Origin: Puniceicoccus vermicola
Lineage (GTDB): Bacteria > Verrucomicrobiota > Verrucomicrobiia > Opitutales > Puniceicoccaceae
Assembly (NCBI RefSeq): GCF_014230055.1
Contig: NZ_JACHVA010000138.1
Coordinates: 1-64,000 of the forward strand
Direction of reading: 5' to 3'
DNA length: 64,000 bases
Below the pieces are notes generated by a model, which was not told the origin of the DNA, did no database searches, and worked only from the letters and a program-made list of their open reading frames with translations. Positions 31,505 through 41,275 of the stretch are shown here, piece after piece. The position numbers were made by a program, and so were the translations under genes. How positions within the stretch are numbered: the stretch's first letter is position 1; the number at the start of each line of letters is the position of its first letter.

Positions 31505-31673
31505 GCTCGTTTATAGATACACAAAACTATCCACAGGAACGCAAACCCAAGATTCGAGAATTCCCACAAAAACCCTGCTTTTCCCACAATTTCCCAAATT
31601 CCGAGTCGGGAGATCGGCAATTCGAGCTGAAGTCGGACCGAGGGGATCGCGACGGATTGGACGCGAGGCTCAT

Positions 31674-32060
31674 CCTACGCGTCGAAATGGCTATCGCCAT
31701 TCCGCTACACACTTCTCAAACTACCGCGAATGGCTAATGCCGGTGGATTCGCGCTCTTCCTACGCGTCGAAATGGCTATCGCCATTCCGCTCCGCACTTC
31801 TCAAACTAGCCTGGATGGCTAACGCCGGTGGGATTCGCGCTTCTCCTACGCGTCGAAATGGCTATCGCCATTCCGGTCCGCACTTCTCAAACTAGCCTGA
31901 ATGGCTAACGCCAGGGGGATTCGTGCTTCTCCTACGCGCCGAAATGGCTATCGCCATTCCGCTACACACTTCTCAAACAGCCCGAATGGCTAACGCCGGT
32001 GGATTCGCGCTTCTCCTACGCGTCGAAATGGCTATCGCTATTCCGCTCCGCACTTCTTAG
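31674..32060. repeat. Five tandem REP-like units of about 85 bp
   Basis: The segment CCTACGCG(T/C)CGAAATGG starts at 31674, 31759, 31845, 31931 and 32015, giving steps of 85, 86, 86 and 84 bases. Each unit holds two hairpins. One is AATGGCTATCGCCATT, a perfect 6-base stem with a TATC loop. The other runs from GAATGGCTAACGCC to ATTC, with a GGTGG bulge. The last unit ends early at about 32060. The array fills most of the 645-base gap between lutA and the Usp gene. The rest of that gap shows no gene. Confidence 0.85.
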
Positions 32061-37187: not shown

Positions 37188-37562
37188 ATGGCAATCTCTG
37201 ACTTTCTTCCGGTTTTGATCCAGGTATGTCTCGCTGTTGTGATTGGAGCGGTGATCATCCTGGCCAGCGTCGTTGTCGGTCAACGCGGCAGAAAGAACAA
37301 GATCAAGGACACGGCCTACGAATGCGGGGTGCCGCCCGCCGGAAAATCGCGGACTCGATACGCGGTCAAATTCTATGTCACGGCGATGCTTTTTATCCTC
37401 TTCGATATCGAAGTGGTCTTCCTCATCCCATGGCTTCTCAGCTATCGCGAGTTTCTCGTGAACAGCATCCCGATCGTCGCCCCTATGGCCGTATTTTTTG
37501 GAATCTTCATCCTCGGCCTCGTTTACGAGTTGAAGAAAGGTGCCATCGAATGGGAGCGCTAA
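37188..37562 (+). CDS. nuoA: NADH-quinone oxidoreductase subunit A (solitary)
   Basis: Three-helix membrane subunit of complex I (124 residues), near the quinone site. Helices lie at about 6-29, 62-82 and 92-112. The conserved loop Y-E-C-G-V-P-P and the F-D-I-E-V-V-F-L motif with its acidic residues are intact. The ATG at 37188 gives the usual short N-terminus. No other nuo gene is in the window, so this subunit is encoded apart from the rest of the complex or belongs to a split locus. Confidence 0.94.
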   Translation: MAISDFLPVLIQVCLAVVIGAVIILASVVVGQRGRKNKIKDTAYECGVPPAGKSRTRYAVKFYVTAMLFILFDIEVVFLIPWLLSYREFLVNSIPIVAPMAVFFGIFILGLVYELKKGAIEWER

Positions 37563-37597: not shown

Positions 37598-38953
37598 ATG
37601 CATCTTGAGCGCTTCATCACCAAATCACGCATCGTTGAGATAACGAGCAAGGACCTCCTGGGTGCGCTAGAAGAACTGCTCAGCGTTTGCGACGTCGAAG
37701 AGCTCGAGCAATACGGCAAAAAGAAACTTCTCAAAGAACTGCTCGACCGCGAGCACACGATCACGACCAACCTCGGCAACGGAGTGGCTCTCCCCCACGT
37801 CCGCGTTCCGATGAAGCGTCGTTACATCATGGCCATAGGCCGCTGCCCGGAAGGCCTGACCTACGACGGGTCGGATGACTACCGCGACGTAAAGCTGGTC
37901 CTTCTCCTCCTCGCCTCCGAAAACGCCCGGAACTATCTCAACGCCTTGGCCGCCATCGCCGGAGTGTTCCAAGACAAGCGGGTCGTCGAGCGGCTAATGA
38001 TGCCGGGCACGCTGAACGATTTCCGCACGGACATTAAGGCCACGCTGGGTGGAGATCCGCAGATGCCCCGCCAGAAGCCGACCCGAATCAATCGACTCAT
38101 CCTCCGGGAGGCGGAAAAAATCGCCATGAGCGCGCGCTGCCGGTCAGTTCTTATTTTTGGCGACACCTTTGCCGGAGGAGTTGAGCTCACGCGTAGTTTC
38201 AAAGATCTGAAGACGATCCTCGTCACCCAAGCGGGGGCCGAAACGGTCGAGGACGGCGGGAAAGTCACCGAGTTTCTCCCGATTCGATCGTTTTCCCACC
38301 ACCGGATGTCGCAGCTGCGATCGGCGATCCTCATCGGCCTGACCCGGGGAATTTTTGAACCGGACGAACTCATTTGCTGCGTCGGCGGGCTACCTCAAAG
38401 CAATCGCTTTGATTCGATCCTCGTCGTCGATGTGGCTCGGGAATTCCAGACCCTCTTCTCGGATAAAAGCCATACATTGCCGCCCTCTCTTCGCCCTGAG
38501 GTCATGGAGCGGGTACTTGCCATTGCCATGGAGCTCGGGTTGGAAGGCCGCGAAGGCAAGAAAGTGGGCTGCCTCTTCGTCCTCGGCGACACTCAAAAGG
38601 TCTTGGAATACTCGAAGCCTCTCGTCCTCAACCCGTTTTACGGATATCGCGAGGAAGACCGCAACGTGCTGAATCCCTTCATGGACGAAACGGTGAAAGA
38701 ATTTTCCTCGATCGACGGAGCCTTTATTATCCGGGGCAACGGTGTCATCGAAGCCGCCGGCACCCTCCTCCGCGCGCCCGAATATCCCGACCTCCCAGGA
38801 GGCCTTGGAGCGCGCCACGCTGCCGCCGCAGCGATCACGAAGAGCACCCGCAGCCTGGCCATCGTCGTCTCGGAAAGCACCGGCCAAGTTACCCTTTTCT
38901 CACACGGAGACATGGTTTCTCTTCTCGGCCACCCAGTTGGTGGTAATTTTTGA
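37598..38953 (+). CDS. PTS EIIA / pyruvate-kinase-C-like / diadenylate cyclase fusion
   Basis: A 451-residue three-part protein. Residues about 1-150 match a type-2 PTS EIIA domain with the phospho-His pattern G-V-A-L-P-H-V-R-V-P (His67). Residues about 155-300 resemble the C-terminal domain of pyruvate kinase (A-R-C-R-S-V-L-I-F-G-D-T-F-A-G-G). Residues about 310-451 are a DisA_N/DAC-type domain, with the D-G-A motif at 373-375, G-A-R-H-A-A-A-A at 404-411 and I-V-V-S-E-S-T-G-Q-V. DAC domains make cyclic di-AMP from two ATP. The canonical R-H-R motif is R-H-A here (406-408), so activity is probable but not certain. No membrane segment is visible. It sits between nuoA and rpmG. Confidence 0.82.
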   Translation: MHLERFITKSRIVEITSKDLLGALEELLSVCDVEELEQYGKKKLLKELLDREHTITTNLGNGVALPHVRVPMKRRYIMAIGRCPEGLTYDGSDDYRDVKLVLLLLASENARNYLNALAAIAGVFQDKRVVERLMMPGTLNDFRTDIKATLGGDPQMPRQKPTRINRLILREAEKIAMSARCRSVLIFGDTFAGGVELTRSFKDLKTILVTQAGAETVEDGGKVTEFLPIRSFSHHRMSQLRSAILIGLTRGIFEPDELICCVGGLPQSNRFDSILVVDVAREFQTLFSDKSHTLPPSLRPEVMERVLAIAMELGLEGREGKKVGCLFVLGDTQKVLEYSKPLVLNPFYGYREEDRNVLNPFMDETVKEFSSIDGAFIIRGNGVIEAAGTLLRAPEYPDLPGGLGARHAAAAAITKSTRSLAIVVSESTGQVTLFSHGDMVSLLGHPVGGNF

Positions 38954-39241: not shown

Positions 39242-40192
39242 CTAGAGAAATCTAGCGAGGGCGTTCAACAGGTAACCTGTTGCCATAATTGCACCTGCCG
39301 TGATCGCGAAAAACAACGCGATTAACGGCAGTTTCATTGTGCGCCGAAGCATCACGGCCTCGGGTAGACTGAGGGCTGACATGGCCATCATAAAGGAAAG
39401 CGCCGTCCCAATGGGAATGCCCTTTTCAAACAAGACTACGGCGACAGGAACAATGGCGGCACAACTGCCGTAGAGCGGCACCCCCAGGAAAGTCGCGATT
39501 GGCACCGAAAAGACTCCCGTCATCTCCATCCAGCGATGGATCGTCTCTTGGGGCACGTAGTTGTGGAGAAAAGAGCCAATCGCAACTCCGACAAGCACCC
39601 AGATCCAGATCGCCCGGATCACACCAACGACCTCGCCGACCGCAAAGCGGATGCGTTCGCGAAAATTCTCCGGACCGCGACTCTCGGGAACCGACGATTC
39701 GGCGAACTCATCCTCAAGATGTTTCTCCATCTTTAATTTCCCGAGAACAAATCCAGCAACGACGCCAATCAACAGCCCGCTCCCCACATAAACCAGGGTG
39801 ATGGGAATCCCGAAGTCGGCAGCCATGAGCACAACGAGATACTCATTAATAATCGGTGAAGTGATGAGAAAGGAGAAACAAATCCCCAACGGCACCCCGG
39901 CGCGGAGAAAACCGATAAAAATCGGGATCGAGGAACAGGAGCAGAACGGAGTCACCGCGCCAAAAACCGCCGCGATGACGTTCCCCCAAACCCCTCCGCG
40001 GCCCATCCACTCCCGAAGCTTCCGCTCCGGGAGAAAGGTGCGCAGTACGCCGATGATGAAGATCATCCCCGCCAACAGCAGGAAGATCTTCATCGAATCA
40101 TAGACGAAGAACTGAACCGCCCCGCCGAAGCGGGTGTTGGGATCTATTCCGAGAAGACCGTAAACGAGCCAATCCGCGGCATTCAGCAACAT
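39242..40192 (-). CDS. ArsP/DUF318-type permease
   Basis: A 316-residue membrane protein with about eight hydrophobic helices and the family signature T-P-F-C-S-C-S-S near residue 80. A second conserved repeat reads V-P-L-Y-G-S-C-A-A. This family exports organoarsenicals (ArsP) or other metal-linked substrates. It is the last gene of an operon starting with arsR and arsC and overlaps the end of the small Cys-rich gene by ten bases, which supports an arsenic role. It would replace the missing ArsB or Acr3 pump, an inference from context. Confidence 0.87.
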
Positions 40193-40353
40193 TTACCGCC
40201 CTTGCCCCCGTCTTTTTCGGAACCACAGCAGCATTCGCTCTTTTCAGCCTTCTCCTTCAGAGAGGAATCTAGCTTCGCCATTAGGCGTCGGAAAAGCCCC
40301 GGCTTTGGCGATTCACAGTTGGATGACTTCGCATCTTTCTTTTCAGCACTCAT
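40183..40353 (-). CDS. 56-residue Cys-rich peptide in the arsenic operon
   Basis: A small frame between arsC and the permease gene. The peptide begins [14 protein letters not shown], has an amphipathic middle ([16 protein letters not shown]), then [18 protein letters not shown] at the C-terminus. Its TGA lies inside the permease start region (ATGTTGCTGA), so the two genes overlap by ten bases and are probably coupled. Six cysteines in two clusters suggest binding of As(III) or another soft metal. The function is inferred only. Confidence 0.75.
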
Positions 40354-40371
40354 TCTTTGATTTGGTTTTTC

Positions 40372-40884
40372 TTAGATACTTTGGGTTTGAGAAGGACAAG
40401 GTTGCTCCGCCAACGTCATTTCCCCGATTTTGCGGGTCTCCTCCTCAATCGAAGCCCGGAGTTGGTCGAGCTTACTCAGGGGCAGGTTGAGAAAGAGATC
40501 GATTCGGCGGGCGATCTCGGTCGCCACTGCGATGAACACGGACTCCGAATTCGATTCAGCCGGATCCGGCGAGCCCCAGTGAGCAAGGATGGGCTGCCCC
40601 GGCCAAACAGGGCAGCTCTCCCGAGCGTTATCACACACAGTGATGACAAAGTCGAACTGGACGTTCTTGAATTCATCCAACGACTTGCTCCGCGCATCCG
40701 AAGCGTCGATTAGGAACCGCTCTCTCAGCACCTTCAGGGTCAACGGATGAGGACCATCCTTGGGAGCTGCACCCGCACTGTAGGTTTCAAAACGGGAAGA
40801 TGCCTTTTTCCGAAGGATATACTCCCCCATGATGCTGCGCGCACTATTCCCCGTGCAGAGAAAGAGAATCTTTAACTTTTCCAT
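40372..40884 (-). CDS. arsC: Arsenate reductase ArsC (low-molecular-weight phosphatase type)
   Basis: A 170-residue protein of the LMW tyrosine phosphatase-like, thioredoxin-dependent ArsC family. The P-loop is C-T-G-N-S-A-R-S (Cys10) with the following M-G-E-Y, and the V-I-T-V-C-D-N-A-R-E-S-C-P segment carries the two resolving cysteines. It reduces arsenate to arsenite. The ATG at 40884 puts the P-loop at the N-terminus, and the 70 in-frame upstream codons cover the arsR-arsC gap and part of arsR and are rejected. A C-terminal extension of about 35 residues is predicted helical. Confidence 0.93.
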   Translation of the reverse strand: MEKLKILFLCTGNSARSIMGEYILRKKASSRFETYSAGAAPKDGPHPLTLKVLRERFLIDASDARSKSLDEFKNVQFDFVITVCDNARESCPVWPGQPILAHWGSPDPAESNSESVFIAVATEIARRIDLFLNLPLSKLDQLRASIEEETRKIGEMTLAEQPCPSQTQSI

Positions 40885-40906
40885 GATTTTTCGTTTTTGA
40901 GAGAAC

Positions 40907-41275
40907 TTATTCAGAACAACTGGCGCAGCAGGCAGAAACCACGCCCTCATCGCTCCTCGCCAATACCTCTTTGCGCTTTCGAAGATCTTCGGCAAACCGC
41001 AGATCCTCGGGGCCACAATCCTGAAGACACCGTAGATTCTCCTCCACCAGCGGATTCGTCGGAGTCGCAATGCGATAAATCCTCCACTGAGCAACTCTCT
41101 CCACCTCCAGCATCCCCAGCTTCTTCATATACTGCAGCTGCTTCGACATCTTTACCTGATCGGCTTCGAGAATCTCCATGAGGTGGCAAACGCAGAGCGG
41201 CCCCTCCCGCAACAAATTCAGGATACGCAGCCGCTGCACATCACATAGACACTTATAGACACGAACGACATCCAT
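40907..41275 (-). CDS. arsR: ArsR-family As(III)-responsive repressor
   Basis: Winged-helix repressor of 122 residues. The sensor site L-C-V-C-H-L-M-E (about 27-34) is the alpha-3 C-V-C motif of As(III)-sensing ArsR. The recognition helix region Q-V-K-M-S-K-Q-L-Q-Y-M-K-K follows. The C-terminus ends A-C-C-A-S-C-S-E, three more cysteines that could add a third thiol ligand. It is the first gene of the arsRC-peptide-permease operon and probably controls it from the operator just upstream. Confidence 0.93.
   Translation of the reverse strand: MDVVRVYKCLCDVQRLRILNLLREGPLCVCHLMEILEADQVKMSKQLQYMKKLGMLEVERVAQWRIYRIATPTNPLVEENLRCLQDCGPEDLRFAEDLRKRKEVLARSDEGVVSACCASCSE

Follow-up and report, generated by a model that had tools for sequence, protein, structure and literature searches.

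A 451-residue protein of Puniceicoccus vermicola, encoded in the stretch of 64,000 nt analysed here (the window), joins a PTS EIIA type-2 domain, a DacZ_P domain with the fold of the pyruvate kinase C-terminal domain and a diadenylate cyclase (DAC) domain in a single chain. This EIIA–DacZ_P–DAC fusion is the standard DAC of the order to which the species belongs, and is usually its only one. The protein is probably a soluble, competent diadenylate cyclase, whose output of c-di-AMP, an essential second messenger, would be set by the PTS phosphate relay through His67. The signals that adjust c-di-AMP synthesis are described as largely unknown (PMC11323494); here a classical PTS acceptor domain, built into the cyclase, lets the probable signal be read from its own sequence.

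The open reading frame (37598–38953) is translated without internal stops, and the coordinates of its parts are collected in Table 1. The matches to PTS_EIIA_2 (PF00359; residues 36–142, E 5e-19), DacZ_P (PF21755; residues 164–285, E 2e-14) and DAC (PF02457; residues 314–438, E 6e-23) reach 69.1, 53.6 and 81 bits against Pfam cut-offs of 27, 27.4 and 27, respectively. An AlphaFold model, for which 62 sequences (the window protein and relatives) served as input, has a mean pLDDT of 85 and a pTM of 0.59; because the latter is modest, no claim is made on the packing of the domains. In this model, residues 1–153 superimpose on E. coli IIA-Ntr (1a6j; Z 18.7, rmsd 2.4, 146 aligned) and also fit mannitol IIA (Z 14.1), residues 160–285 superimpose on the C domain of M. 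tuberculosis pyruvate kinase (5wrp; Z 13.8, rmsd 2.8, 121 aligned), and the DAC part (approximately residues 294–444) superimposes on DisA (9y9y; Z 15.7) and CdaA (8c4n; Z 15.1). Likewise, a search of the PDB with a profile of the DacZ_P domain alone returns chiefly pyruvate kinases (best E 0.004), with a designed protein as top match (E 0.001). Pfam and the model agree with the preliminary description of this DNA, in which an EIIA-2, a pyruvate-kinase-C-like and a DAC domain had been read in one protein, and both place the DAC domain in its C-terminal part.

Table 1. Position of the fusion gene, its domains and key residues, and of the gene upstream, in window coordinates
Feature	Position	Strand	Remarks
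nuoA (NADH-quinone oxidoreductase subunit A)	37189..37562	+	35 bp upstream of dac; Pfam Oxidored_q4 E 1.7e-30
EIIA–DacZ_P–DAC protein gene (very probably DacD-type diadenylate cyclase)	37598..38950, stop 38951–38953	+	ATG start, 451 codons
EIIA type-2 domain, EIIA-Ntr-like, residues 1–153	37598..38056	+	Pfam and model match
Arg51, partner of phospho-histidine	37748..37750	+	R in 123/125 EIIA-bearing relatives
His67, predicted phosphorylation site, motif GNGVALPHVR	37796..37798	+	H in 120/125 EIIA-bearing relatives
DacZ_P domain, pyruvate kinase C-terminal fold, residues 160–285	38075..38452	+	Pfam, model and profile matches
DAC catalytic domain, residues 294–444	38477..38929	+	Pfam; DisA/CdaA model matches
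DGA motif, Asp373-Gly374-Ala375	38714..38722	+	D, G 129/129; A 125/129
G-A-R-H-A (404–408), counterpart of GxRHR	38807..38821	+	G, R, H 129/129; A408 121/129
S-E-S (425–427), counterpart of SEE	38870..38878	+	S425 129/129; S427 128/129

Mapping over genome collections, which the preliminary description had proposed, shows that the architecture recurs. A scan of public genomes gave 80 kept loci, in all of which the query is matched from residue 1 to approximately 443; their titles are mostly those of Opitutae or Puniceicoccaceae-type Verrucomicrobiota, with one labelled Pseudomonadales. The presence of the full-length architecture in these 80 independent contigs, and in most of the further loci, rules out an artefact of assembly joining or fusion. 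Across the phylum a DAC domain is found in 372 of 388 sampled genomes; in the order of the window it is found in 59 of 63, and the same 59 genomes have DacZ_P. Elsewhere in the phylum, the DAC matches are mostly stronger and lie in CdaA-sized frames (about 290 aa). DacZ_P occurs in eight genomes outside the order, several of them with the full EIIA fusion, while three genomes (loci L149, L150 and L151) carry DacZ_P–DAC without EIIA. One of these proteins (L149) was at first sight an 840-aa form, yet Pfam matches nothing in its additional N-terminal stretch, which seems to come from reading through an open frame; the protein was therefore treated as DacZ_P–DAC. A DAC tree bearing on whether EIIA was gained once is weakly supported and derives in part from truncated rows.

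In the P. vermicola genome (96 % complete) profile searches find the 451-aa protein as the sole DAC, which must therefore supply c-di-AMP if any is made. Conservation of its catalytic residues was counted over 129 aligned relatives. The D-G-A that the preliminary description had placed at residues 373–375 is present, and so is the R-H-A that it had singled out in place of the usual R-H-R, although as a family norm and not as a peculiarity of this protein. R-H-A was considered as a sign of inactivity and rejected on the same ground, and also because the third residue of RHR is absent from the ten residues that a review gives for the ATP site of CdaA (PMC7288161). A second substitution, which the preliminary description had not noted, is also family-wide: SEE has become S-x-S, with Ser427 at the position of Glu124 of CdaA, the last Glu of SEE, which coordinates metal (PMC7288161). 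CdaA-type proteins of the same phylum have GTRHRA in 26 of 30 cases and mostly keep SEE; with Ala at 408 and Ser at 427, the window protein lacks the full GxRHRxA and SEE motifs of that subfamily, and it reaches 34.4 bits with the NCBIfam CdaA model, for which the cut-off is 188.8. Judged by these residues, an active diadenylate cyclase is expected, possibly with altered use of metal.

Several known systems share parts of this makeup. With CdaA/DacA, DisA, CdaS and CdaM the protein has in common the DAC fold and the DGA, RH and Ser motifs, but it differs in having no transmembrane or DNA-binding region and in its RHA and SxS motifs. With EIIA-Ntr (PtsN) and other regulatory EIIA-2 proteins it shares the fold, the G-x-G-x-x-x-P-H site and the conserved Arg; here, however, the EIIA is fused to a second-messenger synthase and has a Tyr at the second active-site His. 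Control by the PTS in trans follows the same logic, in that the phosphorylation state of an EIIA sets the level of a messenger, as where phosphorylated EIIA-Glc acts on adenylate cyclase. In Caulobacter, phosphorylated EIIA-Ntr stimulates (p)ppGpp accumulation in trans, via SpoT (PMC4848567), which sets a precedent for such control. The fusion, by contrast, unites EIIA and synthase in a single chain, and its messenger is c-di-AMP. A PK_C-fold domain is also found N-terminal to DAC in archaeal DacZ/DacY–CdaZ (PMC6741144), represented by the DacZ of Haloferax volcanii and the CdaZ of Methanocaldococcus jannaschii, which differ from the 451-aa protein in having no preceding EIIA. The kinship to archaeal DacZ suspected in the preliminary description is borne out by the NCBIfam DacZ model NF041371, which is the best NCBIfam match (residues 200–440, E 1e-37), though its 129.6 bits are far below the equivalog cut-off of 430.

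The DacD class of diadenylate cyclases, which we take to be defined by an EIIA domain, is very probably the EIIA–DacZ_P–DAC family. In the class listing of a 2019 article, DacD has five representatives, which include Opitutae, Puniceicoccaceae, Coraliomargarita and Lacunisphaera, and the class scheme is attributed to Corrigan & Gruendling 2013 (PMC6741144). These published representatives come from the same lineage in which the fusion is the standard DAC, a likeness by lineage alone. The EIIA addition had been put forward as one not known to be described. It has probably been catalogued already, given the DacD class, the curated Pfam entry for DacZ_P and the existence of a survey of DAC architectures from 2023 (Galperin, J Bacteriol 205:e0002323, cited in PMC12974146); the regulatory hypothesis attached to it is unusually readable. 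No experimental study of EIIA–DacZ_P–DAC or DacD proteins was found in the literature searched.

The EIIA domain carries both marks of an EIIA-2, a phospho-acceptor His (His67) and a conserved Arg (Arg51). His67 had been named as the phosphorylated residue in the preliminary description, and its setting (G-N-G-V-A-L-P-H) and retention in the relatives agree with that role. In alignment with N. meningitidis IIA-Ntr, the second active-site His of canonical EIIA corresponds to Tyr113, which is found in 120 of the 126 relatives with a residue at this position. In our judgement the second His is a common rather than a defining feature of EIIA-2. With Tyr113 in its place, phosphotransfer may differ from that of canonical EIIA, and a Tyr would suit a terminal acceptor.

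The donors for such a site are encoded in the genome, where the search proposed earlier found a separate EI (595 aa) and an HPr that has both His15 and Ser46. The genome also carries a complete operon for a fructose PTS, comprising FruB (a single chain with EIIA, HPr and EI), FruK and FruA. Profile searches for EIIA-2 and EIIA-Man found two EIIA-2 domains in the genome, those of FruB and of the DAC fusion, and no EIIA-Man. Within the order, EI is found in all 63 sampled genomes. Exactly one EIIA-2 domain is found in 57 of 103 genomes, and by hand count this single domain sits in an ORF of fusion length (433–537 aa) in 53 of the 57. Of twenty loci retrieved from the EIIA-2 survey, 19 have EIIA, DacZ_P and DAC in one ORF, and 17 of these 19 belong to the 53; the remaining locus (G395) is interrupted by a contig end. 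The presence of EI and HPr, together with an intact Arg51/His67 dyad under apparent selection, supports the link between the protein and the PTS that had been proposed from the window alone; that PTS phosphorylation directly governs the cyclase is our inference.

Reduced genomes offer a natural test of this link: a site phosphorylated by the PTS should decay where the relay has been lost. The Arg51/His67 dyad is intact in 50 of 55 genomes larger than 1.3 Mb and broken in all 10 reduced genomes (≤1.3 Mb), a contrast whose Fisher p of 1.7e-8 is an overstatement, the cut-off having been set after inspection of the data and kinship of the sequences being ignored. The lesions in the reduced genomes are varied (R51H, R51S, R51Q in two families, H67Y in two families), and the DGA and RH motifs of the same proteins are intact. 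In one reduced genome with H67Y (G437), tblastn found no EI in the 919 kb read of an incomplete genome; its HPr (L244, 6890–7141) has Thr as the counterpart of R17, with the Ser46 region (NGKSIMGL) intact. In another, with R51S (G407), neither EI nor HPr was found in 835 kb, the genome again being incomplete, and the only match to the EI search is a pyruvate-phosphate-dikinase-like protein, so named from 23 % identity. Here His67 is retained and Arg51 lost instead. The two genomes, both without detectable EI, have thus broken the same active site in different ways. Four genomes of family f4 and one of family f9 make up the five exceptions among the larger genomes. In these two families His67 is lost despite the presence of EI, and the EIIA domain is kept without its phospho-His. 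The EIIA of the fusion is degenerate in the f4 lineage (L164, L165, L166 and L193), and two f4 genomes (G149 and G176) have separate short EIIA ORFs of 161 aa. The reduced-genome pattern gives moderate support to the use of His67 as a PTS phosphorylation site.

In the proposed mechanism, phosphate would pass from PEP to EI and on to HPr, and phosphorylated HPr would modify His67 of the EIIA domain. This domain would be a terminal regulatory acceptor, making no donation to a sugar permease. Its phosphorylation state, probably in concert with a DacZ_P ligand, would alter how two DAC domains are oriented towards one another, and with it how fast c-di-AMP is made. The c-di-AMP would be removed by a PgpH-like phosphodiesterase, and transport proteins with RCK_C (TrkA_C) domains would be its likeliest receptors. 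We infer the enzyme activity, the phosphorylation of His67, the allosteric step, which could act in either direction, and the receptors. As for the ligand, the pyruvate kinase loop T-x-S/T-G-x-S/T, its effector-phosphate loop, aligns with F-G-D-T-F-x-G-G in DacZ_P, where Asp189 is nearly invariant (D in 124/129 relatives); since the loop differs in sequence and has this Asp, the effector of pyruvate kinase is not necessarily the ligand of DacZ_P.

The near invariance of Asp189 also suits a different reading, in which the real input is a metabolite bound to DacZ_P and the EIIA has become vestigial or plays a structural part, such as that of a platform for dimerization or docking. The existence of DacZ_P–DAC proteins without EIIA, the several lineages that keep an EIIA without phospho-His and the Tyr113 substitution point the same way. 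We nevertheless consider this unlikely: Arg51 and His67 are kept in most larger genomes and lost by varied lesions in reduced ones, as would be expected if the site is in use and decays once its donor disappears. This coupled loss supports real phosphorylation of the 451-aa protein by the PTS.

Flux through the fructose PTS could be the phosphate input, via FruB, and the DAC would then report sugar uptake rather than general PEP/pyruvate or nitrogen state. The complete fructose operon of P. vermicola would permit this, but in many genomes of the order EI occurs once and the sole EIIA-2 lies in an ORF of fusion length, hence no FruB-type EIIA, and in structure the domain comes closest to EIIA-Ntr, with mannitol IIA as a further fit; such an input appears rather improbable. 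Still less probable is that the protein is a pseudo-enzyme, or a cyclase making another product. The invariance of the catalytic D, G, R, H and S positions, the position of the protein as sole DAC and the presence of PgpH all speak against this, and outweigh the family-wide changes of RHR to RHA and SEE to SxS that could be cited for it. Regulation of an active c-di-AMP synthase through His67 is a question approachable in vitro with three proteins (EI, HPr and the EIIA–DacZ_P–DAC protein) and PEP, with natural controls at hand in the reduced genomes that have lost the site and in the DacZ_P–DAC proteins that have no EIIA.

The gene directly upstream of dac in the window is nuoA, which encodes subunit A of respiratory complex I. 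Among the related loci L004–L082 the same arrangement recurs, and 64 of 76 orthologous loci show it; the distance between the two genes has a median of about 100 bp. The linkage extends to divergent families, in which NuoA is only 44–50 % identical. Adjacency conserved to this degree points to co-transcription, and nuoA and dac are probably co-transcribed. The nuoA of the window is apparently solitary, with no other nuo gene beside it in the window. A broader proposal may tentatively be raised: throughout the order, the fusion could have brought c-di-AMP under the PEP-phosphotransferase relay, with the cyclase as main non-transport acceptor, co-expressed with nuoA. If true, c-di-AMP signalling would be tied to both the glycolytic (PEP) and the respiratory state.

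A link to glmS (34.4–36.2 kb) was also considered, given that cdaA and glmM are linked in Firmicutes, and was set aside as not conserved, being found in only 2 related loci. A role in defence was likewise rejected; PADLOC matches only a generic diadenylate cyclase model, and no defence gene is found among the flanking genes examined.

The genome search for further components of c-di-AMP signalling, also suggested in the preliminary description, yielded no second DAC. It did yield a candidate phosphodiesterase of the PgpH type (7TMR-HDED domain) and twelve TrkA_C matches, ten of them over the cut-off; RCK_C (TrkA_C) is a known type of c-di-AMP receptor domain. No c-di-AMP riboswitch (RF00379) was found in the genome. 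The HPr gene of P. vermicola lies about 2.6 kb from a gene for an Asp-Al_Ex permease with TrkA_C (RCK_C) (L176, contig C142; 2089–3699 and 6279–6593).

In two genomes outside the class, other EIIA-bearing genes lie near the EIIA–DAC gene: an amino-acid permease with a C-terminal EIIA and a Zn-ribbon–EIIA protein at L153 (713–2578 and 5258–6145), and a Zn-ribbon–EIIA protein at L154 (206–1120). These neighbours look like a cluster of EIIA-regulated proteins and suggest that EIIA is a general regulatory module there. Directly downstream of dac in the window, on the other strand (39242–41275), are an ArsP-type permease, a low-molecular-weight-phosphatase-like (ArsC-type) ORF and an ArsR-type regulator. 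The adjacency of this arsenic-resistance-like cluster to dac is not conserved. Additionally, the translation of 31516–31895 of the window contains repeated peptides (PTRRNGYRHS...HFSN), which suggests short tandem extragenic repeats, and a different repeat lies downstream of the HPr gene (L176, 5243–6194).
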